In this document: positions 271-29,008 of the stretch, piece by piece
Position numbering within the stretch: the stretch's first letter is position 1
Layout: each line of letters opens with the position of its first letter
Assembly: GCA_002685075.1 (NCBI GenBank)
Contig: NYWO01000065.1
Location: forward strand, 1 to 33,519
Source: Arcobacter sp.
GTDB taxonomy: Bacteria; Campylobacterota; Campylobacteria; Campylobacterales; Arcobacteraceae
Length of the DNA: 33,519 nt
Reading direction: 5' to 3'
The notes under the pieces: generated by a model
What the model saw: only the letters and a program-made list of their open reading frames with translations
The model's database searches: none
What the model was told of the DNA's origin: nothing
Position numbers and translations under genes: made by a program

Positions 271-316
271 TGGCGACCCCGAGAAGATTTGAACTTCTGT
301 CATTAGGAGGAAATCC
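271..316 (-). other. Degenerate 3' fragment of a tRNA-Glu gene (candidate attachment site)
   Basis: Read on the minus strand this segment resembles the 3' half of the tRNA-Glu at 28933-29008: the anticodon-loop TTTCCT, a T-arm with TTCAAAT, and an acceptor end CGGGGTC followed by GCCA. About 39 of 46 positions match. The T-stem differs but stays paired (AGAAG with CTTCT here, GTAAG with CTTGC in the intact gene), so it probably came from a divergent tRNA carried by an element. The 5' half is missing, so it is not a functional tRNA. It sits 146 bp before an integrase remnant, the normal arrangement of a tRNA-targeting integrative element. Confidence 0.75.
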
Positions 317-369: not shown

Positions 370-461
370 GGCTTTTATCTTTACTTTCAATTCCTATCAT
401 GTTATAATCAATTCAAATAAAAGTGTTACCTAGAGTGTTACCTTTTAAAAGAAGTTATATT

Positions 462-1469
462 ATGGCAATAAATAGAGATGAGTTTATTAATATTATTGAT
501 ACAGGATTAAAAGCTAATAAAACTTTTTTTAGATTTTTGACTACTCAGATAAAACATGGGATAAAAGAACAAGAATTAATAAAGCAAAATCTGACTCATT
601 CAATTATAAAGAAGATATAAAAAATAATGACAAAAAAATTGATGATAATATAAGTTTAGATAAATTTGCAACTAATTATTTCGAAACAATAGAAGATAGT
701 AACTCATATAGTAAAAACAAGTGGAGAAATACGATAAAAAATTTTTATACTACTTATATAAAAAATGAACTAGGTAATAAAGAAATTAAAATTAAGTCCT
801 AGAACACAAAAAATGACACTAGAAATATTAAATCCAATATTTAAAAGTGCAATAGCAAATAGAATTATATTATTTAACCCATGCACAGGAATTACGGTTA
901 CTAGACCAAAAACTAAAAAGAAAGTAGAAAGCGCATCAATTTTATTAAAAGAGATTCATAATGCAATTACAACTACATTTAAAGATAATCCATATTTTCA
1001 AGCTCTATATTTATTTGCTCTTCAAGGAAGAAGAAAATCTGAAATATTGACTTTGAAATGGGAGAATATTGATTTTAAAAATGGTTTATACACATTACCA
1101 AATACTAAAAATGGAGAAGAACAAACTTTTGTTTTACCTGATTCTATTGCCTTATTACTATTGACTATCCCATCAAATAGAAAGTATTATATATTTCAAT
1201 CTCCTATTAATCATAAAGAACATATTCAAAATATTAAAGCTCAGACAGATAAGTTAAAAAAATACTTAAATAATCCTAGTTTTGGAATTCACTATTTAAG
1301 AAATGTAGTAATTTCTGCAATGGCAGAGCAAGGACTTAATGCGACATACTTATCTGGGGCTTTGGGCCATTCAGATTTAAATACAATTAAAAAATATTTA
1401 TCAATGCCCTATAAAAGAGGTTCTTTAGAAGCAAATAAAACTATTGAGATGATTACTAATAGTAATTAA
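462..1469 (+). pseudogene. Tyrosine recombinase (integrase), frameshifted
   Basis: Three reading frames in series make one integrase. From ATG 462 the first frame gives MAINRDEFINIIDTGLKAN, a typical N-terminus. It is lost around the T runs at 524-538. A second frame continues FDYSDKTWDKRTRINKAK through the core-binding domain to TAG at 800-802. The third frame resumes at 795 with SPRTQKMTLEIL and contains the whole catalytic domain: Arg in GRRKSEIL, HYLRN (HxxR), LGHSD, and the candidate nucleophile Tyr in KKYLSM. Two frameshifts therefore inactivate an otherwise complete gene of about 335 codons. It lies next to the tRNA fragment and points inward, as expected for the integrase of an island inserted at tRNA-Glu. 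The ORF track starts at GTG 423, but the family N-terminus supports 462. Confidence 0.85.
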
Positions 1470-1651: not shown

Positions 1652-3493
1652 CTATTTACTCAAATATCCAAGCTTTAATAAAATATTAGTAACTTCTTTA
1701 AATACAGGAACAGCAGATTTAGAAGCATAGTACTGATATCTTTTTTTACCTTTTGAATTTGGATTAAAAACTGTAACTCCAATTGTATAAGAATTCTGGG
1801 CATCATTTACAAATCCAAAAAATGAACTAATATACTCTTTTTGATATTTTCCTTTTCTTGCTATTTGAGCTGTTCCTGTTTTTCCACCAATTTCTAAACC
1901 TTCAATTCTTGCACTTCTTCCTGTTCCTTTATCAACTGTTTTTATTAGAAGTCTCTTTATCTCTTTTGCTGTATCTTTTGAAATAACTCTTTTTATATCA
2001 TTTTTATTGCTTAAATATTTAGTTGTATCATTTTGAATGTGAGAAACTAATTTTGGAGTAGTTACATAGCCTTCATTATTAAAAACTGTATATGCTTTTA
2101 GTACTTGCATAAATGTTGATGTCATTCCTTGTCCATAAGATACTGTTGCTTTAAATACATTATCACTGTTATTACGTTCACCAGCAGAGAATTGTTTTAA
2201 AGATGGAAGTATTCCTACTCTTTCATAAGGTAGCTCAATTCCTGTTTTTTTAGTAAATCCAAAATTATGCATTCCATCTAACATCTCTTTTCCACTTAAT
2301 CTTTGTGCCAATAGTAATGTTCCTATATTTGAAGAGAATATTACAATATCATCTAGTGTTAGATAATGTTTTTTAAATCTATGATCATCATGAATATAGT
2401 GTCTTCCTATTTTATATCTTCCTTTTGGATATAGACCTTTACTGTTGGAATTACCTTTTAAGTTATGCGCTGAAAAAAGTTCATTTTTTCTTATTCTTTT
2501 TTTATCTAAAACTAAAGCTATTGATATAGGTTTTATAATTGATCCTGGTTCAAATGGATACTCAACTGCTTTTACATTAAGAGATGGAATATCTTCTTGA
2601 AATATTCGTTCAGGATTAAATCTATTTGAGGATGCTAAAGATAATACTTTCCCTGTTTTACTTTCCATTATAGAAACTATAATCTCATCTGCTTTTAATT
2701 CCTTCTTATAAATATCTAAAACCATTTCAATATTTTTTTGAAGTCTTAGTGGAATATTTAAATAAATATTTGAACCATCTACTCTTTGTTTTAATATAGA
2801 GTTTTTATCAAAGCTAATATAAGAGTTTACATCTCTTTTCCCTTTTAGCATGCCATCTTCACTATTATTTAAAAGATTATCAAATTTCTTTTCTAAACCC
2901 TTTATTCCTTTTACTTTTGTAGTTCCTTTTTGGGATTCATATTTTCTGATATAACCTATAGTTGGAGTCAATACATCTTCATAAGAGTAAATTCTTTTTT
3001 CACCACTTTCAAGTACATCTAAGGCAGTTAATTTTTTACTTCCATTGATTTTTCTTGAAATAAAAACATCTAATTGTCTAAGTTTATAACTAAGTGCTTT
3101 TAGATTCTTTGCAGTTTTTGAATCTATATTGTAAGATAGTACTACAGTAGATGGTTTTAGTAATGATTTATCTATTTTTTTTAATATTTTTTCACTTGGG
3201 ATATTACTGTATATTGAAAATAGTTTTATAAACAACTCTTTTTTATTTATATCTAAATATCTTGTATCTATTGATGCTTTATATAGTTTTCTTGAAGTTG
3301 TAATTTTAAAGTTATCAGAGCTGTAAATATCTCCTCTAACTGCTAGTTCATTTTTTGTGATATTTAATGATGGAAGTTTTCTTATATTTTTTATTGTTGT
3401 AAAAACGGAATATATTAAGACAAGTAAACAAATTATTAGTGTTAAGGCTAAATAAAAGAATTTTTTTACTCTAGGATCTCTTTCTTGTGTCAT
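1652..3493 (-). CDS. ftsI: Class B penicillin-binding protein, FtsI-type transpeptidase
   Basis: This membrane-anchored D,D-transpeptidase cross-links septal peptidoglycan in the periplasm. The 613-residue protein has one N-terminal membrane segment (about residues 12-32), a class B dimerisation region starting near RGDIYSSD, and a transpeptidase domain with all three active-site motifs: EPGSIIKP (SxxK), SSNIGT (SxN) and GGKTGTAQ (KTG). There are no PASTA domains. The length and the lack of a PBP2-type hydrophobic loop favour FtsI over MrdA. It has no fliE or other division gene next to it. It is preceded by the TAGACA-N21-TATAAT promoter shared with the accessory genes, and it lies inside the tRNA-Glu repeats. 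It could be a second, accessory FtsI or the only copy; the window alone cannot say. Confidence 0.88.
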   Translation of the reverse strand: MTQERDPRVKKFFYLALTLIICLLVLIYSVFTTIKNIRKLPSLNITKNELAVRGDIYSSDNFKITTSRKLYKASIDTRYLDINKKELFIKLFSIYSNIPSEKILKKIDKSLLKPSTVVLSYNIDSKTAKNLKALSYKLRQLDVFISRKINGSKKLTALDVLESGEKRIYSYEDVLTPTIGYIRKYESQKGTTKVKGIKGLEKKFDNLLNNSEDGMLKGKRDVNSYISFDKNSILKQRVDGSNIYLNIPLRLQKNIEMVLDIYKKELKADEIIVSIMESKTGKVLSLASSNRFNPERIFQEDIPSLNVKAVEYPFEPGSIIKPISIALVLDKKRIRKNELFSAHNLKGNSNSKGLYPKGRYKIGRHYIHDDHRFKKHYLTLDDIVIFSSNIGTLLLAQRLSGKEMLDGMHNFGFTKKTGIELPYERVGILPSLKQFSAGERNNSDNVFKATVSYGQGMTSTFMQVLKAYTVFNNEGYVTTPKLVSHIQNDTTKYLSNKNDIKRVISKDTAKEIKRLLIKTVDKGTGRSARIEGLEIGGKTGTAQIARKGKYQKEYISSFFGFVNDAQNSYTIGVTVFNPNSKGKKRYQYYASKSAVPVFKEVTNILLKLGYLSK

Positions 3494-3532
3494 TTTTTCC
3501 CTGTATTATGTAGTTAGATTGAATTATTTTAA

Positions 3533-3565
3533 ATTATAGTGTTAGTGATGGACAGGTTATGTCTA
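3533..3565 (-). promoter_or_regulatory. Shared-type promoter of ftsI
   Basis: On the minus strand TAGACA is followed by TAACC and TGTC, so the GACA-N5-TGTC dyad is kept. After exactly 21 nt comes TATAAT, with 39 nt more to the ftsI ATG. The central bases differ from the other copies, but both half-sites and the -10 spacing match. Confidence 0.65.
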
Positions 3566-3607: not shown

Positions 3608-4612
3608 TTATTCTTCCTTAATATTAGATTCTAATTTTTTAATCATATTCATTAAAAGATCACTTATATCTTTAGTGCTAGAGATTAAAACAAGTTTCTC
3701 TAAAGCATCAAGTTTAAAATGATCAACCTCTATAATACTCAAATATTCAAGTGCTTTTTTAATGCCTTCTTTTTTTGCAATACTATAAACTATATTAACA
3801 GATAAATCTAGAGTTTCAGCAGGAAGACTCCCTACTATAGGGTATGTCTCATTGATATTATCTAAAATATCTAATGATTTAAAAGGGAAATATTCAACTA
3901 TTGATATAGCTACTTCTAATATATCTTCGACATATGTATTATGATTTTCTGTAATCTCGTAATCTAGTTCAATAAAGTTTATTAAATCATTGATTTCTTT
4001 TTCATTGTTATCAATTGCATAAATAAATGCTTCGTATCCAAATTTATGTTTTTTATCTAAAAACTTTTTCATATATTTGGAGAACTCTTCATCTGTAGAA
4101 GCAATATGTTTAGATATAGAATACAAATCATCTTTTGATATACCAAAGTCTTTTGATGTAACATATAAATCATTCTTTTCTAAATAGTTTAGTATTTGCT
4201 CATCTTTTACTGTGTCTTTATATTGTATTCTTCGTTCAAGTGTATTGATCATAATATCTTTACAGCCATTATATATAAGTACTTTTAAATTCTTACTACT
4301 TATTTTATAATCACAATCAATACTTATATCAAGCTTTTTTAGATTTGGAAGATTAAATATCTCATTAGGTATATTCTTTACATTTCTTGCAATTATAGAA
4401 AGTTCATTTAAATTAGTTAAATCACCTATCTCTTTAGGTATATCTTTTTTATAAGTGTCTCCAAGAGGTAAAATGAGCTTTTTAATATTTAGGTAGTTTT
4501 CCTCATTAATAGGTAATCCTACCGAACCATCAAAATCTTTATAATAGCTATTTTTAAGGGATTCTAAATTCTTTATAGGATTTTCATCTCTCCATAGTTT
4601 TAATTTATTCAA
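3608..4612 (-). CDS. Leucine-rich repeat protein
   Basis: The 334-residue protein has no signal peptide, so it is probably cytosolic. Residues about 45-115 hold three or four LRR units such as IPKEIGDLTNLNELSI and IPNEIFNLPNLKKLDIS, of the same LPxEIxxLxxLxxL type as two other proteins in this region. The rest, from about residue 120, is an unrecognised helical domain without enzymatic motifs. It is the last gene of the ssb-LRR-protease-LRR operon and overlaps the upstream protease gene by 8 bp, which suggests translational coupling. LRRs are protein-binding modules, so sensing or partner binding is likely, but the partner is unknown. No terminator is obvious before ftsI. Confidence 0.7.
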   Translation of the reverse strand: MNKLKLWRDENPIKNLESLKNSYYKDFDGSVGLPINEENYLNIKKLILPLGDTYKKDIPKEIGDLTNLNELSIIARNVKNIPNEIFNLPNLKKLDISIDCDYKISSKNLKVLIYNGCKDIMINTLERRIQYKDTVKDEQILNYLEKNDLYVTSKDFGISKDDLYSISKHIASTDEEFSKYMKKFLDKKHKFGYEAFIYAIDNNEKEINDLINFIELDYEITENHNTYVEDILEVAISIVEYFPFKSLDILDNINETYPIVGSLPAETLDLSVNIVYSIAKKEGIKKALEYLSIIEVDHFKLDALEKLVLISSTKDISDLLMNMIKKLESNIKEE

Positions 4613-6011
4613 CTCTTCTATCGCTTTGAAGTCTATATATCGATTTTAACTCTTTAAAGCTTTCTCTGGCTTCTTTTACATCTAATACAATCTTTTGCTT
4701 TTCTAGTGTTTTTATTACTACGAATTCTGTATCCAAATTATCTATAAGAGTTACGAAGTGTTTGAAGTTTTTAACCTTGATATCATTTACTGTTTCAACT
4801 ACATATGCAGCTGAGCTATATCCTCTATTTATTTTATGAGGGAATATATCTTGCATCCAAATAACTGCTTCATTAAAATCTTCTGTTTGATCTTTATTAT
4901 AAAAAAGCATTTCAATTGAAGTTGTTTTTTTAGATATAGCAAACACATAGTTCTTTGTAAGTGGTGTAAAAGCTAAACCACCAAAGATAAGATATCTAGG
5001 TTCCTTGTTAAACTCTCTTTTTATCAATGGATTGATTCTTTTAATAGTTTGTTTAAAAGATATAATTTTTTTATCTCTCAATACTTTTATATCAAGTGTA
5101 TCACCTATTTGTTTTTGATGAATAATTAGATTACTATATACTCTTCCAAATTGAGATTTGATTGTTCCATCATTTGCAATTGTATTACCATCTATTTCAA
5201 TTATAATATCGTCTTCTTTATAGTTCTCTGCTCCATAAGCAACTTTTGTGACTAAAACTCCATCACCATTTTTTAGACCAAAGTATTTTTTTACACTATC
5301 ATTTCTAATATAGTTTATTGAAGTACCATCATCTCCAAAACCATTTACAACACCATCTTTTATATCTTCTAAAAAAGTGTTTACAATAATAGAAGGAACT
5401 ATATATGAGATATTACTAGCTTTTGTTAAACTCATCATAGCAACACCAATAATCTCTCCATCTTTATTAATTGCAGGACCACCACTATTTCCACTATTAA
5501 TTGCAGCATCCACTTGTACAGCTAATAGATATTCACCACTCCACGCATAGTTTGTATATTCTATTCTTGAAACAACACCTGTAGTAGTTGAAATAGTTTG
5601 ACCACCTACTGGATAACCTAATACTGTAACTTCATCTCTTGGTTTTACATTTGAGTTAAGCTTTAACTCTTTTATACCTTTAAAGAATGTTTTATCTTCA
5701 ACTTCAACAATAGCAAGATCTGCTTGATGAGATATATACTTAACATTGGCAATATACTTTTTAGGATCATTCTCTTTTTGCACTTCTAAAAATCTAGCAC
5801 CACTTACAACATGAGCTGATGTAAGAATCATATTATCTTTTATAATAGAACCTGAACCCTTGTATCTTAATATCTTACTTGTTTGCCAAGGGTATTTATA
5901 GTTTGGGCTAGAGATTGATGCAAATATCTTTACAATAGCTTCATTTGGTAAGCTTGAAGCGTATGTTATTGTGTTTAGTAATAATAGTAATACTAAGATT
6001 AGTTTCTTCAT
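4605..6011 (-). CDS. Secreted trypsin-like (HtrA/Deg family, S1C) serine protease
   Basis: This 468-residue protein is probably exported to the periplasm by an N-terminal signal peptide (MKKLILVLLLLLNTITYASS). The catalytic triad of a chymotrypsin-fold protease is visible: His in LTSAHVVSG, Asp in HQADLAIVEV, and Ser in NSGNSGGPAIN. The region after about residue 230 (GDGVLVTKVAYG, then a stretch resembling VIEIDG) looks like a PDZ domain, followed by a second, less clear C-terminal module. Housekeeping DegP usually stands alone. Here the gene lies between two LRR genes in a short-spaced operon that begins with ssb. A role in envelope stress or in processing a partner protein is inference. 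Confidence 0.85.
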   Translation of the reverse strand: MKKLILVLLLLLNTITYASSLPNEAIVKIFASISSPNYKYPWQTSKILRYKGSGSIIKDNMILTSAHVVSGARFLEVQKENDPKKYIANVKYISHQADLAIVEVEDKTFFKGIKELKLNSNVKPRDEVTVLGYPVGGQTISTTTGVVSRIEYTNYAWSGEYLLAVQVDAAINSGNSGGPAINKDGEIIGVAMMSLTKASNISYIVPSIIVNTFLEDIKDGVVNGFGDDGTSINYIRNDSVKKYFGLKNGDGVLVTKVAYGAENYKEDDIIIEIDGNTIANDGTIKSQFGRVYSNLIIHQKQIGDTLDIKVLRDKKIISFKQTIKRINPLIKREFNKEPRYLIFGGLAFTPLTKNYVFAISKKTTSIEMLFYNKDQTEDFNEAVIWMQDIFPHKINRGYSSAAYVVETVNDIKVKNFKHFVTLIDNLDTEFVVIKTLEKQKIVLDVKEARESFKELKSIYRLQSDRRVE

Positions 6012-6058: not shown

Positions 6059-7639
6059 TCATTCATTTGACAACTTAACACATCCATTTTCTCTTCTATC
6101 TTCTTCATCAACCCAATAAGCAGTTTCTTCAAAAGTAAAGGGTAAATTTTTAAGTATATTAGAACTGTCATCAAATAATTTAGAATGTGTAATGTTTAAA
6201 GTGTCCATATTCAATTTTTTAATGTCATCTATATTTGAATTAAAAAGATTATCATCAAAAGTTAATTGTTTTAAATTTGGTAATTTAAAAATATCCTTAT
6301 CCAAATTTTCAATAAGATTGTTTTCAAACTCTAGTTCTTCTAACTCTTTTAATTTTTGTAAATCTTTTGGAAAACTCTTTACATAGTTATTTGAAAAAGC
6401 AAGTCTTTTTAATTTATTTAAATTAACAATATCTTTTGGAATACTTTTTAATCTATTCCCATGTATACAAAAAGAGCTTAAGTTTTTTAATTTTGTTAAT
6501 TCATTTGGTATTTTATCTATATTATTACAACATAAACATAAACTATTTAATATTTTTAAATTCGATATATTAGATGGTATAGTTTTAATTTTGTTAGCTT
6601 TTAAAGATAAAAATATCAAATTCTTTTTATTTAAAATTACTTCAGGAATTTCAGGAATTTCATTTGATTCTAATATAATCATACATAAAGACCTAAGATT
6701 TTCAAACTCTTTTGGTACTTCTTTTATATTATTAAAAGCAGCATCTAAAACTACTAATTTTTCTAATAAAATAAGCTCTTTGGGTAACTCTTTTATACCT
6801 TTATTTGATATATTTAGTTCTACTAAATTAGTTAATTTTTCTAAATCTCTTGGAAAAGTTTCTTCATCTAAGTTATATTTATCAGCCCATTGAAATAAAC
6901 TTGATATGGAATCTTCTTTTAGTTCCTGTCTTTTAGTTATTTTTAAAACATCTTTTTGAATACAAAATTTCATTAAGCCATTTGACTCTTTATTAGGAGG
7001 ATAAAAACTGTATTTCATATCAGGATCTTGCATATTTCCTTCAGTTAAAAACTTAATAGTATTATCTGCTGTATCATATAATTCATCAGGAATATGCTCT
7101 ATATTTGTTGTTTCTACTTTTATTAGTCTGTCTTCAACAAAAGTTGCTTTTGTAAAACTATTTAAATCTTCAAATTCAAAGTGAATAACATTATCGCCGT
7201 CTGTATAATTTTTTTCTGCTTGAACCTTTTCTATAGAATAAAAAAGTAGTAAATTTAAATCATTTGCTATATCTGTACTTGGTGCTTTTGAAAGAATATT
7301 TAATATAGAAGTCTTTTTAACAACCTTATCATCACTTAGTAATTTAGCTACAGTTTTAATAAAGAAATTAATAAATTTAACATCAAACTTTTTATTTGAT
7401 TCTTTAATAATAAATTTTTCTAAACTATAAAGAGCATTGTATATATATTCATGAACTGTAAAAGTAAAATCACCTTCTTTAAGATTATCTTTTACATATT
7501 TATATTTTTCAAAAGAAAGAAGCATGTAGTTTAAAACAGCTTGTTCTGTATCTCTTAGTTTCTTTATATCTACAGTTGATGTTGCTTTAATTTTACTAAT
7601 TGAAATTTCTATACTTTTATTTTCTTTACTTTCTTTCAT
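6059..7639 (-). CDS. Leucine-rich repeat protein with a long unknown N-terminal domain
   Basis: The protein has 526 residues. Residues 1 to about 240 form a charged, mainly helical domain that I do not recognise. Residues about 255-490 carry roughly ten LRR units of about 23 residues, for example LPKELILLEKLVVLDAAFNNI and IPNELTKLKNLSSFCIHGNRL. There is no signal peptide or membrane segment. It lies between ssb (63 bp upstream) and the secreted protease (47 bp downstream) in one operon and has no promoter element of its own. The intact repeat register argues for a functional gene. Such repeats bind proteins, so a sensor or adaptor role is plausible, but the ligand is unknown. The plus-strand ORFs inside it are shadows. 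Confidence 0.75.
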   Translation of the reverse strand: MKESKENKSIEISISKIKATSTVDIKKLRDTEQAVLNYMLLSFEKYKYVKDNLKEGDFTFTVHEYIYNALYSLEKFIIKESNKKFDVKFINFFIKTVAKLLSDDKVVKKTSILNILSKAPSTDIANDLNLLLFYSIEKVQAEKNYTDGDNVIHFEFEDLNSFTKATFVEDRLIKVETTNIEHIPDELYDTADNTIKFLTEGNMQDPDMKYSFYPPNKESNGLMKFCIQKDVLKITKRQELKEDSISSLFQWADKYNLDEETFPRDLEKLTNLVELNISNKGIKELPKELILLEKLVVLDAAFNNIKEVPKEFENLRSLCMIILESNEIPEIPEVILNKKNLIFLSLKANKIKTIPSNISNLKILNSLCLCCNNIDKIPNELTKLKNLSSFCIHGNRLKSIPKDIVNLNKLKRLAFSNNYVKSFPKDLQKLKELEELEFENNLIENLDKDIFKLPNLKQLTFDDNLFNSNIDDIKKLNMDTLNITHSKLFDDSSNILKNLPFTFEETAYWVDEEDRRENGCVKLSNE

Positions 7640-7702: not shown

Positions 7703-8134
7703 TTAAAAAGGTATATCATCTTCATCAATATCTACTTCAGGTATTTTCTCTGAAGCTTTTGCTTGATATGGTTCTGGTTTATGTTCAACTGCAGATGGTC
7801 TATTTTCATCTTTTGAGCCTAACATTTTCATAGTTTCAACTCTTAAAGAGTGTCTATTTCTATTTGTTCCATCTTGAGCAATCCATTGGTCAAAGATTAA
7901 TCTTCCTTCTAAAAGTACTTTTGAGCCTTTATGTAAGTACTGGTTAGCAACTTCAGCAGATCTTCCAAAAATTGTAAAATCTAAAAAACAAACCTCTTCT
8001 TTTTGTTCTGCATTTGATGATTTATATTTAAAAGTTGTTGCAATTGCAGATTTGGCTACTGCTGTACCATTTTTAATAAACTTTAATTCTATATCTCTTG
8101 TTAAGTTACCAACAAATATTACTTTGTTATACAT
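7703..8134 (-). CDS. ssb: Single-stranded DNA-binding protein
   Basis: SSB coats single-stranded DNA and recruits replication and repair enzymes through its C-terminal tail. The 143-residue frame begins MYNKVIFVGNLTRDIELKF, contains the OB-fold landmarks (FLDFTIFGRSAEVANQYL, KGSKVLLEGRL), and ends with the acidic tip DIDEDDIPF. Length and tail are complete. It is the first gene of an operon with two LRR genes and a protease, under the shared promoter at 8162-8194. An SSB under an accessory promoter and away from rpsF/rpsR is typical of plasmids, phages and islands, so this is probably an extra copy; the neighbours, not the sequence, support that. Confidence 0.92.
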   Translation of the reverse strand: MYNKVIFVGNLTRDIELKFIKNGTAVAKSAIATTFKYKSSNAEQKEEVCFLDFTIFGRSAEVANQYLHKGSKVLLEGRLIFDQWIAQDGTNRNRHSLRVETMKMLGSKDENRPSAVEHKPEPYQAKASEKIPEVDIDEDDIPF

Positions 8135-8161: not shown

Positions 8162-8194
8162 AGTATAGAAAAAAATAAAGACATATTTTGTCTA
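8162..8194 (-). promoter_or_regulatory. Shared-type promoter of the ssb operon
   Basis: The minus strand reads TAGACAAAATATGTCTT, then after exactly 21 nt from TAGACA the -10 TATACT, 27 nt before the ssb start. The TAG of the element is also the stop codon of the upstream LRR gene. Confidence 0.8.
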
Positions 8195-8771: not shown

Positions 8772-9231
8772 TTAAATTCCTTTTAAAAACTTCTTCATTT
8801 GTTTTTCGTCTTTTGCAATAGCAAAGTGCCCTGCACTATGTACAAAAACCATTTCATTGTTTTGTTTAAAAGGTTTTGCATTTAATTAAAGATGAAAATT
8901 CAAATGGTTTTGCTTTTTGAACACCTGTATCATTTTTATCTATTAAATCAATTAGTTTAGATATTTTTGGATACTTATCATTTAAATCTAAATAATCCCA
9001 AATAAGACCTGCAGAACTTTTCCCACCTTTATACTGATGGTGATCAAAGTATTTAACACCATCAAACTTCTTTCCTATATCAATAACTAAATCACAGTTT
9101 GAGAAGTCTGTTGTATTATGATCAACTCTATTTACAATAATATTTTCATTTGTAAATACTTTTAGAAGTGCTACTGCTGCTACTTCATCTGCATGGAAAG
9201 TCTTATTATGTGTAATAATTAATTTACTCAT
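8772..9231 (-). pseudogene. MYG1-family (UPF0160) protein, short form with a frameshift
   Basis: The frame from 9231 reads THNKTFHADEVAAVALLKVF and YFDHHQYKGGKSSAGLIWDY, the start and DHH-like metal-site region of MYG1/UPF0160 hydrolases, which have been linked to exonuclease activity. It stops at 8866 after IKCKTF. One base away, another frame continues NAKPFKQNNEMVFVHSAGHFA to TAA at 8772. This matches the family's C-terminal V-H-x-A-G segment. A one-base change in the A run near 8880 therefore splits the gene. Even joined it would be about 150 residues, half the usual length, so the middle has also been lost or this is a compact subfamily. It lies between the small ORF and the LRR gene in one operon. 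Confidence 0.7.
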
Positions 9232-9402: not shown

Positions 9403-9435
9403 ATTTTACAAAAAGACTAGGACATATTTTGTCTA
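9403..9435 (-). promoter_or_regulatory. Shared-type promoter of the small-ORF/MYG1/LRR operon
   Basis: The minus strand has TAGACAAAATATGTCCTA, then after exactly 21 nt from TAGACA the -10 TAAAAT, 28 nt before the small ORF. On the opposite strand the dyad is followed by TATAGT 22 nt after GGACA, so a divergent promoter towards Fic is conceivable but weaker. Confidence 0.75.
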
Positions 9436-13820: not shown

Positions 13821-16526
13821 TTACTTATAAAACCTCAAAACATGCGTAAAACCTTTTGGTTTGTTCTCTAGTTTTTCAATATCTTTTACATTGTTACTTT
13901 TTAAATAGTTGATTCTAAAGTTCTCATTCTCAAAGCTTCCTTCAACACTCCAATCACAAAGGTTTGTAAGATTATTCTTAATACCTGCAAAGTCACCTCT
14001 TTCTACCTTTTTGAATAGATCTTTACTATTTAGAGTAGATAGTGAGTCTATATGTATTATTTTTAGTTCAAAATATTCACTTTCTGGCATAGTTAATTTT
14101 ACTAATATATTTTTTAATTCTTTTCGTTTTTTTATAGGATCAAATATCTTATTTAATGCAATTGTAATCTTCTCTACATCTATATAAAATTCACCTTCAA
14201 TCTTAGATTTAGTTAATATCAAATCTTCAGGTAGATGTTTACCTATAGTGTTAAATATCTTTTCAAGAGTTTTGAAGTCACTTCTTACCTGTATCTCTTG
14301 TTTAAATAAATTTATGATGTCCTCAAACTTTCTAATTTTTGTACCATCACTTAAAGTTATAGCTTTTTTGAGTCTAAAATCAAAAGGATTTTTTCCACTA
14401 TCACAATACTCATTTAGTTCATCCAAACTTGACCATCCGATATTTATATCACCTTTACTACACCAGCTATAGTTTTCATCTGGATTAGTTTCTAATAAAA
14501 ATGTATATACTTTCTTATAAAGATTAGGAGACAACTCTTTAAGTTCATCTTTCATAGTTGCAAATTGAGATTTAACAGCACTCATATACCCATCAAAGTT
14601 TTTATACTCACTATTATTTAAACTGCCAAAATCCCAAGTGTGTGTAGTGTATTTTATAGGTTTATCTATAGTGAAGTTTGTGAGAAGTTTTACTAATTTT
14701 TGTGGGGTGTGGTTTGTAGTGCTTTTAATAAGATTTTTTATATCATCATTAGTAGCTAGATCAAAAGCAGTCATCTCTGACTTTACATTTATATCTGCAC
14801 CATTGTCTATCAAAATTTTAACAAGCCTATCTTCACCTTTTAAAGCATAGTGCATAAGTGGTGTCATACCCATATTGTTTTTGTGGTTTATATCTGCACC
14901 ATTTTGAAGAAGATAAATTAATATTTTTTCTGATGAATACTTAGGAAGTTCATGAGTATCAGTTATCATTTCACCATTTTCATTTTCATATTGATCAATA
15001 CTAAACTTATCTTGATAAGCATCTATTATATGAAATAAAATGTTATTTCCATTTTTATCTTTATAATGTATGTCTGCTCCATTTTCTATTAATAAGTTTA
15101 TAATTTTTAATTTTTTACGTCCCAATTTTTCAGATGAACATACTTCCATTAATAAATTTATTTGATTTTTATCAGAATTATAATTTATTTGATTCACACT
15201 AGAACCATTGTTAATTAACAATTTAATTAAATCAAGATTTTTAGTTGTAAATATAGATTTTTTTAATGGATTATATACATTCATATCAGCATTCATTTTG
15301 TAAAGATCGTTAATCAACTCAATAATAAGGTTTGTATTTTCCTTACTATAAAATAACTTAGCTTTTTTTGCAAAATCAATACAATCACTTACTGTTGCAT
15401 CATAATCTATGTTAATAGGTTTTGTTGATTCTTTATATTTTAATTCATTTGCATGTTTCATTACTTTTATATCACAAACAGAAAGAAGTTTTATTGAGCT
15501 ACAAATCTCTTTAATCTCTTTTTCTGGATCATTAAATATTGGTATGTTATGTCCGTCACCAATATCTTGGTAAATTTCTTTTTTTAATAATGGCGATATG
15601 TAATAACCTTTTGCATAAGGAATATTATTGTCTTTATGTTTTTGAATTACAAGTTTAATTAAAGAGTAATCTTGTAATTCAATAGCAACTTGTAAAAATC
15701 CTCTATCATCATTATCTAATCGTGATTCTTTATGCAACATTCTATGAAATAAATCATATTCTATATCAATATTTGCACCATTTTCAATTAAATATTTGCA
15801 GGTTTCAATATCTTTATTAGATGCTGCATAGAATAAAGACGTTGCATGATATATTTTCCCATCAAAAAACTCTACTTTTTCATATTCATTTATATCTGCT
15901 CCACATTCTAAAAATAATTTGATAAGTACTTTGCTTCTCATCAAAACAGCATATAAAAAAGTATTATTATCATTTTTGCATCTACTCTTTATATCTATTC
16001 CTTTTTTTAGTAGATATTTAATTGTATCGTATATCTTTTTACCTGGATCATATTCAGCATCATCTAAATCATTCCAATTGGCTCTGAGTTTAGGAGTTTC
16101 ATTATAAAAGTTTTTCATAACTTCAGCTAAATTGAGATTTTTTATATCACTATATTTACTTATTATAAAATCTACTAATTCAACATTATTAAGTAAAACG
16201 GCAATCATTAAAATACTTAAACCATTTTTTGATACTGACAACATATCCAAATCTTCATCATCTAAAAGATAGCTCATTAGCTCCATATTTACAGATTTTT
16301 TATTTTTATATAATTCATACAAATATTCAGCAAGATTAAAAGATTTGATTTCACCATAATTAGCATGAAAATTTTCTCTTAGTGTATCAAACCTTTCAGC
16401 TGCATTTTGTGTTGATACATACTCTTTTACTTGATCTTCTCTTTCTTCTTCTACATATATAGCAACTTTTTCATACTCACTAGGTAGTTTTGGTGCATTT
16501 TCAAATCTATTTTTAGTATTTTTCAT
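13821..16526 (-). CDS. Large ankyrin-repeat protein
   Basis: The protein has 901 residues and no signal peptide. Ankyrin units are spread over residues about 75-620: LIENGADIDIEYDLF, LLIENGADIHYKDKNGNNILF, LLQNGADINHKNNMGMTPLMHY and LIDNGADINVKSEMTAFDLA are clear, with several degenerate ones between. The C-terminal 280 residues (from about 620) form a domain I do not recognise, beginning after THTWDFGSLNNSEYKNFDGY; it has no evident catalytic motif. It has its own shared-type promoter and a 63-nt leader. Ankyrins bind proteins, so it may be a sensor or scaffold whose C-terminal domain is the effector. It is the largest gene in the window and is intact. Confidence 0.8.
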   Translation of the reverse strand: MKNTKNRFENAPKLPSEYEKVAIYVEEEREDQVKEYVSTQNAAERFDTLRENFHANYGEIKSFNLAEYLYELYKNKKSVNMELMSYLLDDEDLDMLSVSKNGLSILMIAVLLNNVELVDFIISKYSDIKNLNLAEVMKNFYNETPKLRANWNDLDDAEYDPGKKIYDTIKYLLKKGIDIKSRCKNDNNTFLYAVLMRSKVLIKLFLECGADINEYEKVEFFDGKIYHATSLFYAASNKDIETCKYLIENGANIDIEYDLFHRMLHKESRLDNDDRGFLQVAIELQDYSLIKLVIQKHKDNNIPYAKGYYISPLLKKEIYQDIGDGHNIPIFNDPEKEIKEICSSIKLLSVCDIKVMKHANELKYKESTKPINIDYDATVSDCIDFAKKAKLFYSKENTNLIIELINDLYKMNADMNVYNPLKKSIFTTKNLDLIKLLINNGSSVNQINYNSDKNQINLLMEVCSSEKLGRKKLKIINLLIENGADIHYKDKNGNNILFHIIDAYQDKFSIDQYENENGEMITDTHELPKYSSEKILIYLLQNGADINHKNNMGMTPLMHYALKGEDRLVKILIDNGADINVKSEMTAFDLATNDDIKNLIKSTTNHTPQKLVKLLTNFTIDKPIKYTTHTWDFGSLNNSEYKNFDGYMSAVKSQFATMKDELKELSPNLYKKVYTFLLETNPDENYSWCSKGDINIGWSSLDELNEYCDSGKNPFDFRLKKAITLSDGTKIRKFEDIINLFKQEIQVRSDFKTLEKIFNTIGKHLPEDLILTKSKIEGEFYIDVEKITIALNKIFDPIKKRKELKNILVKLTMPESEYFELKIIHIDSLSTLNSKDLFKKVERGDFAGIKNNLTNLCDWSVEGSFENENFRINYLKSNNVKDIEKLENKPKGFTHVLRFYK

Positions 16527-16589: not shown

Positions 16590-16622
16590 ATTATAAACTA
16601 AACTTTAGACATATATTGTCTA
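16590..16622 (-). promoter_or_regulatory. Shared-type promoter of the ankyrin gene
   Basis: The minus strand reads TAGACAATATATGTCTA (both 6-bp half-sites perfect), then after exactly 21 nt from TAGACA the -10 TATAAT, 63 nt before the ATG. It directly abuts the stop codon of the J-domain-like gene. Confidence 0.85.
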
Positions 16623-17096
16623 TTAAGTATTTAGTCTTTTCAATATCTGATACGCTTCATTTATATCTTTTGGTAAATCCTTACTTGCCAAGGTATCATA
16701 ATGGTATTGTCTAATTAATGTTTTATAATTTTTCTTTATAGTTAAAAGACTTGCATCGATACTACATTCAAGAACTTCATAATATTTTGTGAAACTACTA
16801 TACATAGCTGCTTCCTTATAATTATTCTCTTTTTCATAATATGTATTTTCATTACTTTCTATGAATGTCAATTTAGCATATTCCCTTTCACCACTAAAAT
16901 ATTGTTCTTTTATAACGGTACATACTAATCCTTCATATAAAGTCACATGAATCCAAGATGAATTTTTAGGTATTGAAATATAAAATCTTCTTCCATTAAT
17001 AGATACAACCATACTTAAACGATAAAGTTTATTTATTGTCATTGTATATTTTTTATTGTATGAAATTGGTAAATCTCTAAAGTTTGTTGTTTTCAC
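16623..17096 (-). CDS. J-domain-like protein with altered HPD motif
   Basis: The protein has 157 residues. Residues 1 to about 95 are a strand-rich domain I do not recognise (VSINGRRFYISIPKNSSWIH). Residues about 103-156 resemble a J-domain: YYEVLECSIDASLLTIKKNY, then a loop and DINEAYQILKRL. The catalytic HPD tripeptide is replaced by HYD, so stimulation of DnaK ATPase is doubtful and the fold may serve only for binding. It is a single-gene unit with its own shared-type promoter, between the helicase and ankyrin genes. The J-fold call rests on the spacing of the helices and the conserved Tyr-x-x-L start. Confidence 0.65.
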   Translation of the reverse strand: MKTTNFRDLPISYNKKYTMTINKLYRLSMVVSINGRRFYISIPKNSSWIHVTLYEGLVCTVIKEQYFSGEREYAKLTFIESNENTYYEKENNYKEAAMYSSFTKYYEVLECSIDASLLTIKKNYKTLIRQYHYDTLASKDLPKDINEAYQILKRLNT

Positions 17097-17129: not shown

Positions 17130-17162
17130 ATTATAGTAGATTGTATAGACATATATTGTCTA
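17130..17162 (-). promoter_or_regulatory. Shared-type promoter of the J-domain-like gene
   Basis: The minus strand reads TAGACAATATATGTCTA, then after exactly 21 nt from TAGACA the -10 TATAAT, 33 nt before the ATG. Confidence 0.85.
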
Positions 17163-17173
17163 TAAAAACAATT

Positions 17174-18589
17174 CTAAAAATCCAAATTCAACTTATCTAA
17201 TTCAAAGTCAATAGAATCTAAAACAGAAGCCTGATGCTCTTCAAGTATTTTATTTGCATTATTTGGCAATAATACTTTTATATCTTTAGAAGCTCTTGTA
17301 ATTGCAACATACAAAAGTCTATACATCATATCTTTATCATTCATCTTTTGTATTTCTGTCAAATCAATATAAACAGTTTCATATGTGCTACCTTGTAGTT
17401 TATGAATAGTAGATGCGTAGATATATTTTACATCTATAAACATATTTTTTATACTATAAAACAATCTCCATTTTGTACTTCTTTGCACATAATTCTTTTC
17501 AAATTTTGCACTTTTTGCAAGTTTATTTAAAACCATTTCAAATCGACCTTTTGAATTTGGATCTATTACTTTAAAAGGTCTTCCACTTAAATCTTTACAA
17601 TTCCAATATTCAACTTCTAATTTCTTATGAAAACATTTAATAGTTAAATCTATTTTTGCAATATCGCTATTTTGGTGTACGACTATTTCATCAATTACAT
17701 TTGCTTGTTGAAATATCACTTGATCACCTTTTAGAAATGTTTCAGGATTTAATACATTGTTTTCTTTCCAATATCTATTTCTAATAACCTTATTGTGTTG
17801 TTCAACACTATTATTAGTAAACCCAGCTATTACTTTATCTTTTTTAGCCCAAGTATCAGGCGTACAAAAATCTTCATAAAATTCATTTTTAGAATCAAAA
17901 AATTGAACTTTATTTTTAAATGACTCATCATTGAAGAACTCTTTTATAGAGAGATAGTTTTTGGATTTGATTATATTTCTAGCTTTTGTTGCTATATTTA
18001 TTATATAGCTATCTTGAGCTTGTCTAACAATTTTATTTAGTCTATATTTATGAGCTATTTCAAATACTTTATTATTTTGATTATCAACAGGAAGTAATTG
18101 ATTCTCATCTCCAACAAATAATACAGATTTAATTCTAGATTTTTCAATTGCTTTAACGATATATTCATAAATATCAGAACTAACCATAGAACTTTCATCA
18201 ACTATTAGAATATCTGTTTTTGTATCATCTTTTTCTTTTGATTTTATAGGCTCAAATTTTTGAATACCTTTATCAAAATCAGTTACAAGCTTAATATTTA
18301 AAAAGGATTGTATTGTTTTTGTATCTACATTTTCAACTTCATGGGCTAAAAGATTTACTCTTAATACTTGAAGTGCTTTATGTGTAGGCGCTGTTATTGT
18401 AATATGAAATTGCTCTTTTAACTTTTTTACTAGTTTTGTAGTTAGATAAGTTTTACCAGTACCCGCTGCACCACTTAGTGAAACTTCATTTTGCCATACC
18501 ATATCTGCTTTTATAATATCTTCTAACTTTTTTGATATTTCTTCAAAAGCTTGTTTTTGAGTTAATGAGTTTGTAATTGTAGTGTTCAT
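17174..18589 (-). CDS. SF1 DNA helicase, Dda/RecD-like
   Basis: This predicted 5'-3' ATP-dependent helicase has 471 residues. Motifs in order: Walker A GAAGTGKT (40-47), Ia TAPTHKAL (66-73), Walker B IVDESSM (129-135), motif III VGDENQLLPV (about 158), motif V STIHKLQGSTYETVYID and motif VI RLLYVAITRA near the C-terminus. The compact size with an SH3-like insertion region fits phage-type Dda and stand-alone RecD-like helicases rather than the RecBCD subunit. It is a single-gene unit under a shared-type promoter. With the accessory SSB it could act on single-stranded DNA during repair, conjugation or phage attack; which of these is not shown. Confidence 0.88.
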   Translation of the reverse strand: MNTTITNSLTQKQAFEEISKKLEDIIKADMVWQNEVSLSGAAGTGKTYLTTKLVKKLKEQFHITITAPTHKALQVLRVNLLAHEVENVDTKTIQSFLNIKLVTDFDKGIQKFEPIKSKEKDDTKTDILIVDESSMVSSDIYEYIVKAIEKSRIKSVLFVGDENQLLPVDNQNNKVFEIAHKYRLNKIVRQAQDSYIINIATKARNIIKSKNYLSIKEFFNDESFKNKVQFFDSKNEFYEDFCTPDTWAKKDKVIAGFTNNSVEQHNKVIRNRYWKENNVLNPETFLKGDQVIFQQANVIDEIVVHQNSDIAKIDLTIKCFHKKLEVEYWNCKDLSGRPFKVIDPNSKGRFEMVLNKLAKSAKFEKNYVQRSTKWRLFYSIKNMFIDVKYIYASTIHKLQGSTYETVYIDLTEIQKMNDKDMMYRLLYVAITRASKDIKVLLPNNANKILEEHQASVLDSIDFELDKLNLDF

Positions 18590-18617: not shown

Positions 18618-18650
18618 ATTATGCTATATTAAGTGGTCATATATTGTCTA
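18618..18650 (-). promoter_or_regulatory. Shared-type promoter of the helicase gene
   Basis: The minus strand reads TAGACAATATATGACCA: the left half-site is perfect and the right one degenerate. Exactly 21 nt after TAGACA is CATAAT, 28 nt before the ATG. Confidence 0.75.
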
Positions 18651-22510: not shown

Positions 22511-23185
22511 TTAAAATAACTGTAGCTGAACAGGTTCTATTTTATAAATAGTTTTTATAAAATCTTCTTTTGATTTCATTGCTATATCTATTAAATTTAG
22601 CCTTACAAGTGAAACCAATATTGCACAAGTTCTAGCTTGACAATTTATTGACCTTTTGGGATTAAATTCAATATCAGAAAAGTTATCGAATTTTATTAGT
22701 TCATCAATAATATCTGGATAATTTTTATATAAAGTATTTATATATAGCCAATCATAAAAAGAAGTTTTAGGTTCATTTTCCCAAAATATACCTTCATAAC
22801 AAAAACCTATTATATTCCCTGAATTTCTTAATCTTTCATCTTTTTTCGCTTTTATACTTTCAGTTAAATAAATATCTTTATATTGAACATCTCCTTCAAA
22901 TATTTTACTACCTTGAAATGCACATTCAAGAGATATTTGATGATCTATTTCAAAATCTACCATAAGATTAAATGCACTTAATTTCCAGCCCAGTTCATTA
23001 TCTGATTTAGTTGATACTTCTAGAATATTGTTGTATCCTATTTTTTTTGCACTTTCATGTAATGAAATAATACTTTTTGATTTTTGAGATACTGAAAAAC
23101 CATTGTAGAACTTAAACTCTATTCCAGTTTCTTTAAATAATTCTCTTTTATTGTTACTTACTGAAAATATTGGTCTATTTGCCAT
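22511..23185 (-). CDS. NADAR-family antitoxin of DarT (DarT1-associated type)
   Basis: This family removes ADP-ribose from guanine in DNA and so reverses DarT damage. The 224-residue protein begins MANRPIFSVSNN and has SVSQKSKSIISLHESAKKIG, the core ECAFQGSKIFE, EPKTSFYDWLYINTLYK and FNPKRSINCQARTCA, the set I associate with DarT-linked NADAR proteins. It overlaps the darT stop by 11 bp, so both are made from the promoter at 23716-23748, toxin first. There is no macrodomain. The assignment rests on remembered family motifs plus the position beside darT. Confidence 0.8.
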   Translation of the reverse strand: MANRPIFSVSNNKRELFKETGIEFKFYNGFSVSQKSKSIISLHESAKKIGYNNILEVSTKSDNELGWKLSAFNLMVDFEIDHQISLECAFQGSKIFEGDVQYKDIYLTESIKAKKDERLRNSGNIIGFCYEGIFWENEPKTSFYDWLYINTLYKNYPDIIDELIKFDNFSDIEFNPKRSINCQARTCAILVSLVRLNLIDIAMKSKEDFIKTIYKIEPVQLQLF

Positions 23186-23684
23186 TTGTAATCCCTTTTA
23201 TTTTATTTATATTAATTGAACTATAAGCCATTACTTCTGCTTTTCTTGCTTCAACTCTTGTCCAAAAATCTTTTTCATTCACTAAAGTATTAAAATCAAT
23301 ATATTCAAATAAATCCTCAATCGTAAATATATTTGAGTTAGTTTGATTTGCAACCTTGTCACAGAACAATGTATTTTCATCAAACAATATAGATATATCT
23401 AGTTCTATCCATACAGGAGAGATAATACTTCCTCTTTTTTTAGCAGAGTGATACATGGGATGATCTTTAATAAATGATAAATGAACAAACTTATCAAGTC
23501 CCCTTTTTTTATCAAGAGTATGACTTAAACTTTCTGCACCATATCGAGAAACATCAATTTGATTTGATTCAATATTTAACAATGATTGAATGCCATTTTG
23601 TTCTATAGATTTTAAATTTGCTCTATCTGTAAAGTGATAAATTGATTCAATTCCATAACTTGATAATGTTTCTCTAATACTCAT
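23175..23684 (-). CDS. darT: DarT-family DNA ADP-ribosyltransferase toxin
   Basis: DarT attaches ADP-ribose from NAD+ to bases in single-stranded DNA and blocks replication; DarTG systems abort phage infection. The 169-residue protein shows IYHFTDRANLKSIEQNGI (NAD-binding start of DUF4433), FVHLSFIKDHPMYHSA, and near the C-terminus RVEARKAEVMAYSSI, where the Glu of KAEV is the expected catalytic residue. Length is slightly under the usual 200. It is the first gene of a two-gene unit with the NADAR antitoxin. Toxin-first order with shared-type control means that both depend on the regulon promoter. Confidence 0.85.
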   Translation of the reverse strand: MSIRETLSSYGIESIYHFTDRANLKSIEQNGIQSLLNIESNQIDVSRYGAESLSHTLDKKRGLDKFVHLSFIKDHPMYHSAKKRGSIISPVWIELDISILFDENTLFCDKVANQTNSNIFTIEDLFEYIDFNTLVNEKDFWTRVEARKAEVMAYSSININKIKGITNGK

Positions 23685-23715: not shown

Positions 23716-23748
23716 ATTATATAAATTCAGATAGACATATATTGTCTA
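23716..23748 (-). promoter_or_regulatory. Shared-type promoter of darT-NADAR
   Basis: The minus strand reads TAGACAATATATGTCTA with perfect half-sites, then after exactly 21 nt from TAGACA the -10 TATAAT, 31 nt before the darT ATG. Confidence 0.85.
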
Positions 23749-27169: not shown

Positions 27170-27202
27170 ATTATAGAGAGTATCTTGGTCATATATTGTC
27201 TA
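27170..27202 (-). promoter_or_regulatory. Shared-type promoter of the small-protein operon
   Basis: The minus strand reads TAGACAATATATGACCA, then after exactly 21 nt from TAGACA the -10 TATAAT, 29 nt before the ATG. The right half-site is degenerate, as at the helicase promoter. It diverges from the WYL promoter 65 bp away. Confidence 0.8.
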
Positions 27203-27267: not shown

Positions 27268-27300
27268 TAGACAATATATGTCTATAATACTAATTACAAT
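27268..27300 (+). promoter_or_regulatory. Shared-type promoter of the WYL regulator
   Basis: The plus strand reads TAGACAATATATGTCTA with perfect half-sites, then after exactly 21 nt from TAGACA the hexamer TACAAT, 29 nt before the ATG. A second possible -10, TATAAT, begins inside the right half-site at 27283. The copy in front of the regulator suggests autoregulation. Confidence 0.85.
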
Positions 27301-27329: not shown

Positions 27330-28337
27330 ATGGAATCAAACCAAACAACAAGAGTTTTAGAGTTATTAAAAAGATTTAATAACGGTGAAAAAGTATGCAT
27401 AGATAAAATTATTGAAGAAGCAGCTGCTGATGCTAAGGATTATGTCCCAAATATCTGGCTAAACTCTAAAAATAAGCCTGTATCAGATAAAACTATAAGA
27501 AGAGTACTAGATGTACTAAAACCTTACTTTAATTTTGAGCTTATTAGAGGTGGGAAAGATGAAAAAGGTTGCTATAAAGCAATAACTAAAAATGCCTTTG
27601 ATAACTTTATGAATCCAGAGGTTTTATCTTTAATGGTACACACCTTTAATCTTGCAAATAAAAGCGATTTATTTGATAACTTTGATTTAGATGACAATGA
27701 TAAAAATATTTTAGAAAGTAAGATAAAAGATACAAATAAGCTTTATGATTTTAAAAATAAGCCATTTGAAACAAAAAAAGATGATATGGTTATTTTTAAA
27801 GCATTAGAATACGCTATTAAACATCAAAAATATACAAAGATTAATTACGAAGTAAATGGTAAAAATGAACTATTTGAAGTTAAGCCTTATAAAATAGTAT
27901 TTATAAATGAAAACTTTTATATAGCATGTGAAATAGAACATGAAAAACTTGAGTTTACAATGTATAGAATCTCAAAAATTAAAAGTGTAGAAGATACTTC
28001 TAAAACATTTCATAAGAACTTAGAAATAATTGATTTTATAAAAGATATGCAAACACCATTTTCAGTATATAAAAGGGATTATAAAAAACATTTAATTGAT
28101 ATTATACTTGAAGTTGATGTATCGAAAGCCTTTTACTTTAATGCAAAGAAATATCTAAAATCACAAGAACTATTAGAAGTAAAAGAGAATGGAAATTTAT
28201 TAATAAAATTTAGAGTAACACAAACTTTAGAGGTAAAAGAATTAATTAAAAGATGGATTCCACATTTGAAAGTAATTGAACCTATTTCTCTAAAAAATGA
28301 CATTGAATTAGAAGTTAAAAAATTCTTATCATTTTAA
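27330..28337 (+). CDS. WYL-domain transcriptional regulator
   Basis: The protein has 335 residues. An N-terminal winged-helix region (about 1-90, containing VSDKTIRRVLDVLKPYF) precedes a linker. The WYL domain (about 155-225) has TKINYEVNGKNELFEVKPYKIV and ENFYIACEIE, with FYI in place of W-Y-L, and MYRISKIKSVE closes it. A WCX extension (about 250-335) ends with LIKFRVTQTLEVKELIKRW. WYL proteins regulate defence loci (for example BrxR and CapW) and are thought to sense nucleic-acid ligands. It is on the opposite strand to its neighbours, has the shared operator at its own promoter, and is the only broad-type DNA-binding regulator in the region besides HipB and the Fic HTH. It is therefore the best candidate to bind the eleven shared sites. 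Confidence 0.88.
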   Translation: MESNQTTRVLELLKRFNNGEKVCIDKIIEEAAADAKDYVPNIWLNSKNKPVSDKTIRRVLDVLKPYFNFELIRGGKDEKGCYKAITKNAFDNFMNPEVLSLMVHTFNLANKSDLFDNFDLDDNDKNILESKIKDTNKLYDFKNKPFETKKDDMVIFKALEYAIKHQKYTKINYEVNGKNELFEVKPYKIVFINENFYIACEIEHEKLEFTMYRISKIKSVEDTSKTFHKNLEIIDFIKDMQTPFSVYKRDYKKHLIDIILEVDVSKAFYFNAKKYLKSQELLEVKENGNLLIKFRVTQTLEVKELIKRWIPHLKVIEPISLKNDIELEVKKFLSF

Positions 28338-28357: not shown

Positions 28358-28390
28358 TAGACAAAATATCACTATAAATAAGTTTATAAT
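28358..28390 (+). promoter_or_regulatory. Orphan shared-type promoter
   Basis: The plus strand has TAGACAAAATATCACTA and exactly 21 nt after TAGACA the -10 TATAAT. No intact gene follows; the IS3 remnant begins about 20 bp downstream. The original gene has probably been deleted or replaced. Confidence 0.65.
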
Positions 28391-28408
28391 TCTTCCAGAA
28401 CTATTTAG

Positions 28409-28870
28409 GGTAACCAGATCACTTTGTATCTAGCTACTGTAATTGATTTATACTCAAGAAAAGTAGTTGGTTGGAGTATGGATGATACCATGAAAACTAA
28501 ATTAGTAAATGATGCATTAATAATGGCAATTAAAAGAAGGAAGCCTGATAAAGGGCTTATCTGACATACCGATCGTGGAAGCCAATATGCTTCTGATTCT
28601 CATAAGAATTTATTAAAAGAACATGGAATTGTTCAAAGTATGAGTCGAAAAGGTGATTGCTGGGATAATGCAGTTTCTGAAAGTTTTTTTCATTCATTAA
28701 AAACAGAATTAGTTTATCATGAAACTTTCAAAACCAAAGCACAAGCTACTGAAATGATATTCGAATATATAGAAATATTCTATAATAGACAAAGGTTACA
28801 TTCTTATAACAATTATATGTCACCAGTAGAATTTGAAGAGAAAATGTTACGTTTAGAAATGGTTGCTTAA
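28409..28870 (+). pseudogene. IS3-family transposase (OrfB) remnant
   Basis: The frame reads [20 protein letters not shown], then [45 protein letters not shown], the C-terminal part of the IS3 DDE integrase domain. The first Asp (VID), the second Asp (HTDRGSQY) and the final Glu (AVSESFF) are present. It is dead for two reasons: the N-terminal half is missing, and the Trp codon expected before HTDRG is TGA (28562-28564). The track's 28640-28870 ORF is only its tail. The remnant lies between the orphan promoter and tRNA-Glu. Confidence 0.88.
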
Positions 28871-28882
28871 GTTATTATTATT

Positions 28883-28932: not shown

Positions 28933-29008
28933 TGGCGACCCCGGCAAGATTTGAACTTACGTATTCAGGAGGAAATCCTGAGGTCCTTGGCCGCTAGACG
29001 ACGGGGTC
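28933..29008 (-). tRNA. tRNA-Glu (anticodon TTC)
   Basis: The minus strand folds as a full cloverleaf: acceptor GACCCCG paired with CGGGGTC, anticodon stem TCAGG/CCTGA with loop ATTTCCT (anticodon TTC), T-arm GTAAG-TTCAAAT-CTTGC, and an encoded 3' CCA after G. The length is 76 nt. Its 3' half is repeated imperfectly at 271-316, so it is the probable integration target of the island lying on its 3' side. Confidence 0.95.

Follow-up and report, generated by a model that had tools for sequence, protein, structure and literature searches.

An island-borne FtsI paralog behind a WYL-type operator in an Arcobacter genome

Why would a gene for the transpeptidase that builds the division septum lie within a mobile island and carry the regulatory element of that island's defense genes? 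The question is raised by ftsI in a 33,519-nucleotide (nt) stretch of DNA from Arcobacter sp. (GenBank contig NYWO01000065.1, assembly GCA_002685075.1), hereafter called the window, which constitutes the entire contig C133 of a draft assembly (2.68 Mb, 161 contigs, 86.5% complete). A first-pass annotation made from the sequence alone had placed this gene between two tRNA-Glu repeats, behind a dyad and -10 box like those of the defense genes, and had offered two explanations: an accessory penicillin-binding protein (PBP), or the essential ftsI brought under the control of the island's regulon. The evidence presented here favors an accessory gene, whose product may stand in for or compete with the FtsI of the host.

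RESULTS

An FtsI additional to the housekeeping copy

The gene at 1652 to 3493 (reverse strand) encodes a class B PBP of 613 amino acids (aa) (Pfam Transpeptidase, 4.5e-60; PBP_dimer, 2.5e-9) with the full-length architecture of FtsI, comprising a cytoplasmic tail and N-terminal transmembrane segment, a pedestal (the PBP dimerization domain), and a transpeptidase domain whose catalytic motifs are intact in alignment, namely, SxxK (GSIIKP), SxN (SSN), and KTG (GGKTGT). Its setting is not that of the housekeeping gene: in every relative examined, the chromosomal ftsI sits between ftsW (divergently oriented) and ppi, a synteny that the window copy lacks, and the chromosomal FtsIs of the genus are 63 to 66% identical to the window protein. 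Two FtsIs occur in G001, a completely assembled member of the genus: C7 encodes the housekeeping protein and C16 an island protein 73% identical to that of the window. These two island proteins form one clade (support of 99/97) outside the genus' chromosomal clade, whereas the island FtsI of a further genome, G059, clusters with its own chromosomal copy (100/99) on a long branch, and FtsI was thus captured at least twice. A recent duplication of the host ftsI was rejected on the basis of both the tree and the identities.

A survey of 104 family genomes detected a second FtsI in just two of them, G001 and G059, to which the window's own genome is added by inference. The sole FtsI found in its assembly is the 1652-3493 copy, but the whole ppi-ftsI-ftsW-murG-uppP block was not found in this 86.5%-complete assembly, and contig C122 (with PBP1A and glnA, the latter 92% identical to that of the relative G003) stops inside glnA, where the ftsI block would come next, which places the housekeeping ftsI in an assembly gap. 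Judged by these comparisons, the window FtsI is almost certainly an island-borne, horizontally carried paralog. Of the two initial explanations, the accessory PBP is therefore the one supported, as far as sequence goes, with the housekeeping ftsI occupying another, conserved locus in relatives; control of the essential gene is not supported. The finding that was to have counted against any tie to the island, a leuB-ftsI adjacency with the same upstream sequence in island-free relatives, did not materialize; no ancestral adjacency of these genes was found, and the idea was dropped. Nor does ftsI lie beside fliE, where another copy was to be sought, its neighbors in relatives being ftsW and ppi.

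Comparison of the accessory FtsIs of the window and G001 gives a dN of 0.19 and a dS of 0.82 (NG86), a dN/dS ratio of about 0.23 that is approximate given the fairly high dS and that indicates purifying selection on both genes. The cytoplasmic/transmembrane segment, through which contacts with FtsW and other partners are expected, has 30 to 38% identity to two chromosomal copies, compared with 58 to 68% among chromosomal copies. Plasmid and phage records contained only distant FtsIs, and plasmid records only weak relatives of the WYL regulator described below; viral contigs contained no relative of either protein. Upon inspection, the best plasmid FtsI match, from Sulfurovum mangrovi, proved to be an ordinary murG-ftsW-ftsI locus and was set aside.

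The gene lies within an element at a tRNA-Glu site

The repeats flanking ftsI are, as first described, a 3' fragment of tRNA-Glu at 271 to 316 (reverse strand; att-like, 85% over 46 nt) and the intact tRNA-Glu(TTC) at 28933 to 29008 (reverse strand), which forms the right edge of the island. Immediately adjoining ftsI is an integrase pseudogene (461 to 1469, forward strand), with a Phage_integrase domain within 813-1469 and a frame broken upstream, whose intact 379-aa homolog occurs at the same tRNA site of G009. There, the tRNA-Glu, which has the window's right-hand neighbors (proteins 84 to 87% identical), is occupied by another insertion, of 5 kb (L171:5797-11146, G009:C3), which is bounded by the same tRNA repeat and encodes that intact, related integrase but no ftsI; the corresponding site in G002 and G006 has neither ftsI nor island. 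Together, these comparisons identify the tRNA-Glu as the attachment site and place ftsI inside the element. Positions 1 to 238 of the window, left of the island, encode the C terminus of LeuB; since the same site in G009 has another left flank, conservation does not extend to the left junction.

A shared operator and a presumed WYL-domain activator

The regulatory element of the island consists of TAGACA-N5-TGTCTA followed, after exactly 10 nt, by TATAAT. At ftsI, the dyad GACAGGTTATGTC occupies 3551 to 3563 within the composite site at 3533 to 3565 (reverse strand; TAGACATAACCTGTCCATCACTAACACTATAAT), and TATAAT begins exactly 10 nt past the 17-bp dyad (about 21 nt from center to center), with the ATG 39 nt past the -10. 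The window contains 7 copies of the core GACA-N5-TGTC (expectation from shuffling, 0.12), and the 2.68-Mb genome has 9 more sites elsewhere. The composite 33-mer, allowing at most one mismatch, has 5 matches in the genome, all in the window and the ftsI site among them; across the family it is present in 9 of 104 genomes, with 24 matches against 1 for a reversed control. (G031 and G054 each have just one match, in an ordinary setting, and that of G031, which is intragenic, may be due to chance.)

On a score matrix built from 35 sites, the ftsI site excluded, the ftsI site scores 14.6, compared with a maximum of 7.2 over both strands of 497 kb of non-island DNA. The best score upstream of 29 chromosomal ftsI genes (29 genomes) is 0.9, indicating that chromosomal ftsI genes are without the operator. 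Spacing is constrained as well: across five islands, an exact TATAAT has offset 10 in 15 cases, compared with four for the remaining offsets from 0 to 30 taken together. The initial description of an ftsI promoter like those of the defense genes therefore holds in both sequence and spacing, a chance origin of the dyad was dropped, and ftsI very probably belongs to the regulon of the island's WYL protein.

That protein, the presumed controller, is encoded at 27330 to 28337 (forward strand) within the same element and has WYL and WCX domains; its relatives occur at 12 loci in Campylobacterota, most of them with the same operator. In a Sulfurospirillum metagenome-assembled genome (MAG) (L181), a relative of the regulator and its operators lie beside an apparent type III CRISPR gene cluster. 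The dyad takes the place of the -35 element at a fixed distance from the -10, an arrangement characteristic of regulons with WYL activators. In Caulobacter, the site of the WYL-domain regulator DriD overlaps the -35 and keeps a constant spacing to the -10 (PMC12340889), and in mycobacteria the motif of the WYL proteins PafBC, located around -26 with fixed spacing to the -10, replaces the normal -35 (PMC11804915). By analogy, the regulator is probably of the PafBC/DriD type, and activation is a better guess than repression. The likeness to PafBC has bounds, in that PafBC is a heterodimer with a nonpalindromic motif and a genome-wide DNA damage regulon and its ligand has been tested, whereas the ligand of the island protein is proposed by analogy. 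BrxR resembles the island regulator in being a WYL protein of a defense island with inverted-repeat operators, but it acts as a repressor, with its repeats positioned downstream of the promoter (PMC9122601), whereas the dyad lies upstream of the -10 at 10 of 10 window sites; no division genes have been described for BrxR.

Division genes recur in sister islands

The G001:C16 island has more than 15 genes in common with the window, as well as the operator, and its accessory ftsI follows an operator (8782, score of 21.7) via a 57-aa open reading frame (ORF); a remnant of FtsZ lies near its WYL gene. The most extensive set occurs in G059:C1, where about 45 to 92 kb encode a WYL protein, two SSBs, and FtsA, FtsI, FtsZ, and FtsW (Tubulin, 6.9e-44; FTSW, 2.6e-80; Transpeptidase, 5.8e-48; FtsA identified by its 57% identity to the chromosomal FtsA), with operators ahead of SSB-FtsA-FtsI (78972, score of 22.0) and FtsZ-FtsW (88397, score of 15.7) and with the housekeeping FtsZ, FtsA, FtsW, and FtsI on other contigs. 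(The title of this record, L180 or CAMCYD010000001.1, names a Helicobacter pylori PMSS1 MAG and looks wrong, the genome being placed in the window's Arcobacter-like family.) G014 has a second FtsA (operator at 154698) and a membrane-anchored FtsZ GTPase domain (operator at 175888), and G033 has another such anchored domain behind an operator (10647); in G019, the FtsZ homolog is likewise anchored and reduced to the GTPase domain. In Sulfurimonas, locus L186 has a WYL gene, an operator (10965), and a secreted transpeptidase (FtsI) piece cut by the contig end.

Of the 20 accessory FtsZ-domain genes among the hits listed for the family, 12 have a WYL gene no more than 2 kb away, compared with none in 370 kb of core loci. 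In these hand counts, contig ends truncate some of the loci, the related genomes do not represent independent samples, and the core loci were not drawn at random from the genome. Searches of an open-access library found no report of division paralogs in WYL islands.

Two further observations concern FtsZ. A protein of about 110 aa that consists of the FtsZ C-terminal domain alone recurs within the family beside a second type of WYL regulator (L154:6854-8206, L153:8169-9531, L121:4457-5799, L191, L192, and L193) and is a candidate WYL-controlled division inhibitor. In G015, a 1,604-aa protein (L151:7214-12028; G015:C1:1982213-1987027) beside a putative AAA ATPase combines a complete FtsZ (GTPase and C-terminal domains) with a uracil-DNA glycosylase domain. 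Phages are known to inhibit both the FtsZ and the uracil-DNA glycosylase of their hosts, suggesting that these domains serve as integrated decoys.

Other genes behind the element

All ten sites in the window face a downstream ORF, with 27 to 63 nt between the -10 and the start; two of these ORFs are short. On the forward strand, the element precedes the WYL gene itself (27268 to 27300, score of 34.6), and an orphan site (28358 to 28390, score of 30) stands before a transposase remnant (28400-28880), a regulon gene having seemingly been lost at the right end of the island. The remaining sites, all on the reverse strand like that of ftsI, precede a small-gene operon running from 27140 down to 25346 (27170 to 27202); DarT (23175-23684) with its NADAR antitoxin (22511-23185) (23716 to 23748); a PIF1/RecD-like helicase, 17174-18589 (18618 to 18650); a DnaJ-domain protein, 16623-17096 (17130 to 17162); an ankyrin-HisKin-conflict protein, 13821-16526 (16590 to 16622); and a MYG1-like fragment, 8866-9231 (9403 to 9435). 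The last (8162 to 8194) heads an operon of an SSB (7703-8134), a DnaB N-terminal domain with leucine-rich repeats (6059-7639), an HtrA-like protease (4605-6011), and a leucine-rich-repeat protein (3608-4612) that ends about 115 nt ahead of ftsI.

Two products of this operon recur elsewhere. In Poseidonibacter ostreae (L178), a 74% identical copy of the protease, which has a trypsin fold and PDZ domains, immediately follows the WYL gene, and WYL islands at L090:10390-11790 and L186:6432-7787 again encode a DnaB N-terminal domain that is joined to leucine-rich repeats and lacks the helicase ATPase domain.

DISCUSSION

An alternative septal transpeptidase

We propose that the WYL protein is activated by single-stranded DNA (ssDNA) arising from damage, phage replication, or excision of the element, as for PafBC and DriD, and that it would then bind the dyad standing in for the -35 and recruit RNA polymerase to the -10, which lies at a set distance of 10 nt downstream. 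The regulon thus switched on would span DNA handling (SSB and helicase), toxins (DarT), and septation, the cell making the window FtsI as an alternative septal transpeptidase that might join the FtsW/FtsI complex either as a substitute for the host enzyme or alongside it. Because the pedestal and catalytic motifs are intact while the cytoplasmic/transmembrane segment is strongly diverged, we consider it about an even bet (probability of roughly 0.5) that the accessory FtsI takes over from the host enzyme or competes with it, altering septal control. The most likely effect would be that septation stops obeying signals or inhibitors acting on the host FtsI, presumably to the benefit of the island.

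There is precedent in Salmonella, where PBP3SAL, a second, 63% identical FtsI, is made only in a special condition and can then run division (PMC5736910); it differs from the window FtsI in being induced by acid or the host, outside any WYL island, and in having no accompanying copies of FtsZ, FtsA, or FtsW. The DriD-DidA system likewise produces its effect at the FtsW/FtsI/FtsN step of division, and variants of FtsI and FtsW overcome the block imposed by DidA (PMC4211646), although that system is chromosomal, belongs to no mobile island, and acts through a small inhibitor rather than an FtsI paralog. Taken together, the DidA-resistant variants and PBP3SAL fit replacement of the host enzyme and inhibition of division alike.

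Several observations weigh against replacement or competition by an active enzyme. Of the ten operators in the window, that of ftsI has the lowest score (the other nine score 24 to 36), owing to GC in the spacer and one changed arm base, such that control by the regulon may be weak; the island itself is decaying, with its broken integrase and transposase remnant; and the chromosomal ftsI of the window's own genome is missing from the assembly. In the sister islands, the G059 FtsI has no pedestal and has SST for SxN, the Sulfurimonas FtsI has lost the SxxK lysine (SVIE) and is catalytically dead, and the FtsZ-like proteins of G014 and G033 have no C-terminal domain. Such dead or truncated proteins look unable to replace a host part and favor a blocking or decoy role.

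Alternative explanations

The chief rival, which we consider rather unlikely, builds on those proteins: when the WYL regulon fires, the division proteins of the island would poison or occupy the host divisome or would trap phage-encoded division inhibitors. In its braking form, the window FtsI and the host FtsI would compete for FtsW, so that septation slows or stops at times of damage or infection, much as in DriD-DidA but by means of paralogs instead of a small inhibitor. Besides the degenerate FtsIs and the anchored GTPase domains (that of G019 included), this explanation draws on the DnaB N-terminal domains without helicase, on the clustering of FtsZ-domain genes near WYL genes, and on the known activation of a division inhibitor by a WYL protein (PMC4211646). 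It accords less well with the window and G001 FtsIs, which retain the pedestal and every catalytic motif under purifying selection, or with G059, where FtsZ, FtsA, and FtsW look complete.

It is improbable that the gene encodes a low-affinity PBP, insensitive to beta-lactams or toxins and carried for resistance. Mobile accessory class B PBPs with such a role exist, and the window FtsI does diverge from the host copy, but no known resistance genes were recognized beside ftsI, its promoter type is common to SSB, helicase, and DarT rather than to cell wall genes, and the FtsZ, FtsA, and FtsW of sister islands are not beta-lactam targets. Quite improbable, too, is passive cargo, a stray ftsI caught in the island with a decayed or accidental dyad; the weak site, its position at the edge of the island, and the decay of the element would suit this explanation, which is countered by the independent captures into WYL islands, the conserved and constrained ORF, and a site that far outscores the 497-kb background with exact -10 spacing. 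Finally, that the housekeeping ftsI itself moved into the island under the island's regulator is very improbable, for although the window copy is the only ftsI in the assembly, it is far less similar to its genus counterparts than is the flanking core glnA, it groups with the G001 island copy, and the entire ftsW-murG block is missing along with the expected gene.

Implications for Campylobacterota

By sequence, a defense-type regulator is here tied to the machinery that builds the septum. The window's own FtsI behind an island promoter, together with the division proteins and fragments of the sister islands, suggests that islands of this kind, once triggered, gain control over division of the host cell. 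As a tentative generalization, somewhat short of even odds, WYL islands of Campylobacterota may repeatedly capture division genes (FtsI, FtsZ, FtsA, and FtsW, up to all four core components) along with SSB and mimics of the DnaB N terminus and, on an ssDNA signal, take over or shut down septation, which would make them a mobile equivalent of the division checkpoint in the SOS response. Campylobacterota are not known to have the classical LexA/SulA, and the islands offer a candidate answer to how these bacteria couple DNA damage or infection to division. If this is true, mobile islands would bring division parts of their own, going beyond toxins that kill or arrest the cell, and it is this broader pattern, more than the single ftsI gene, that is of interest.
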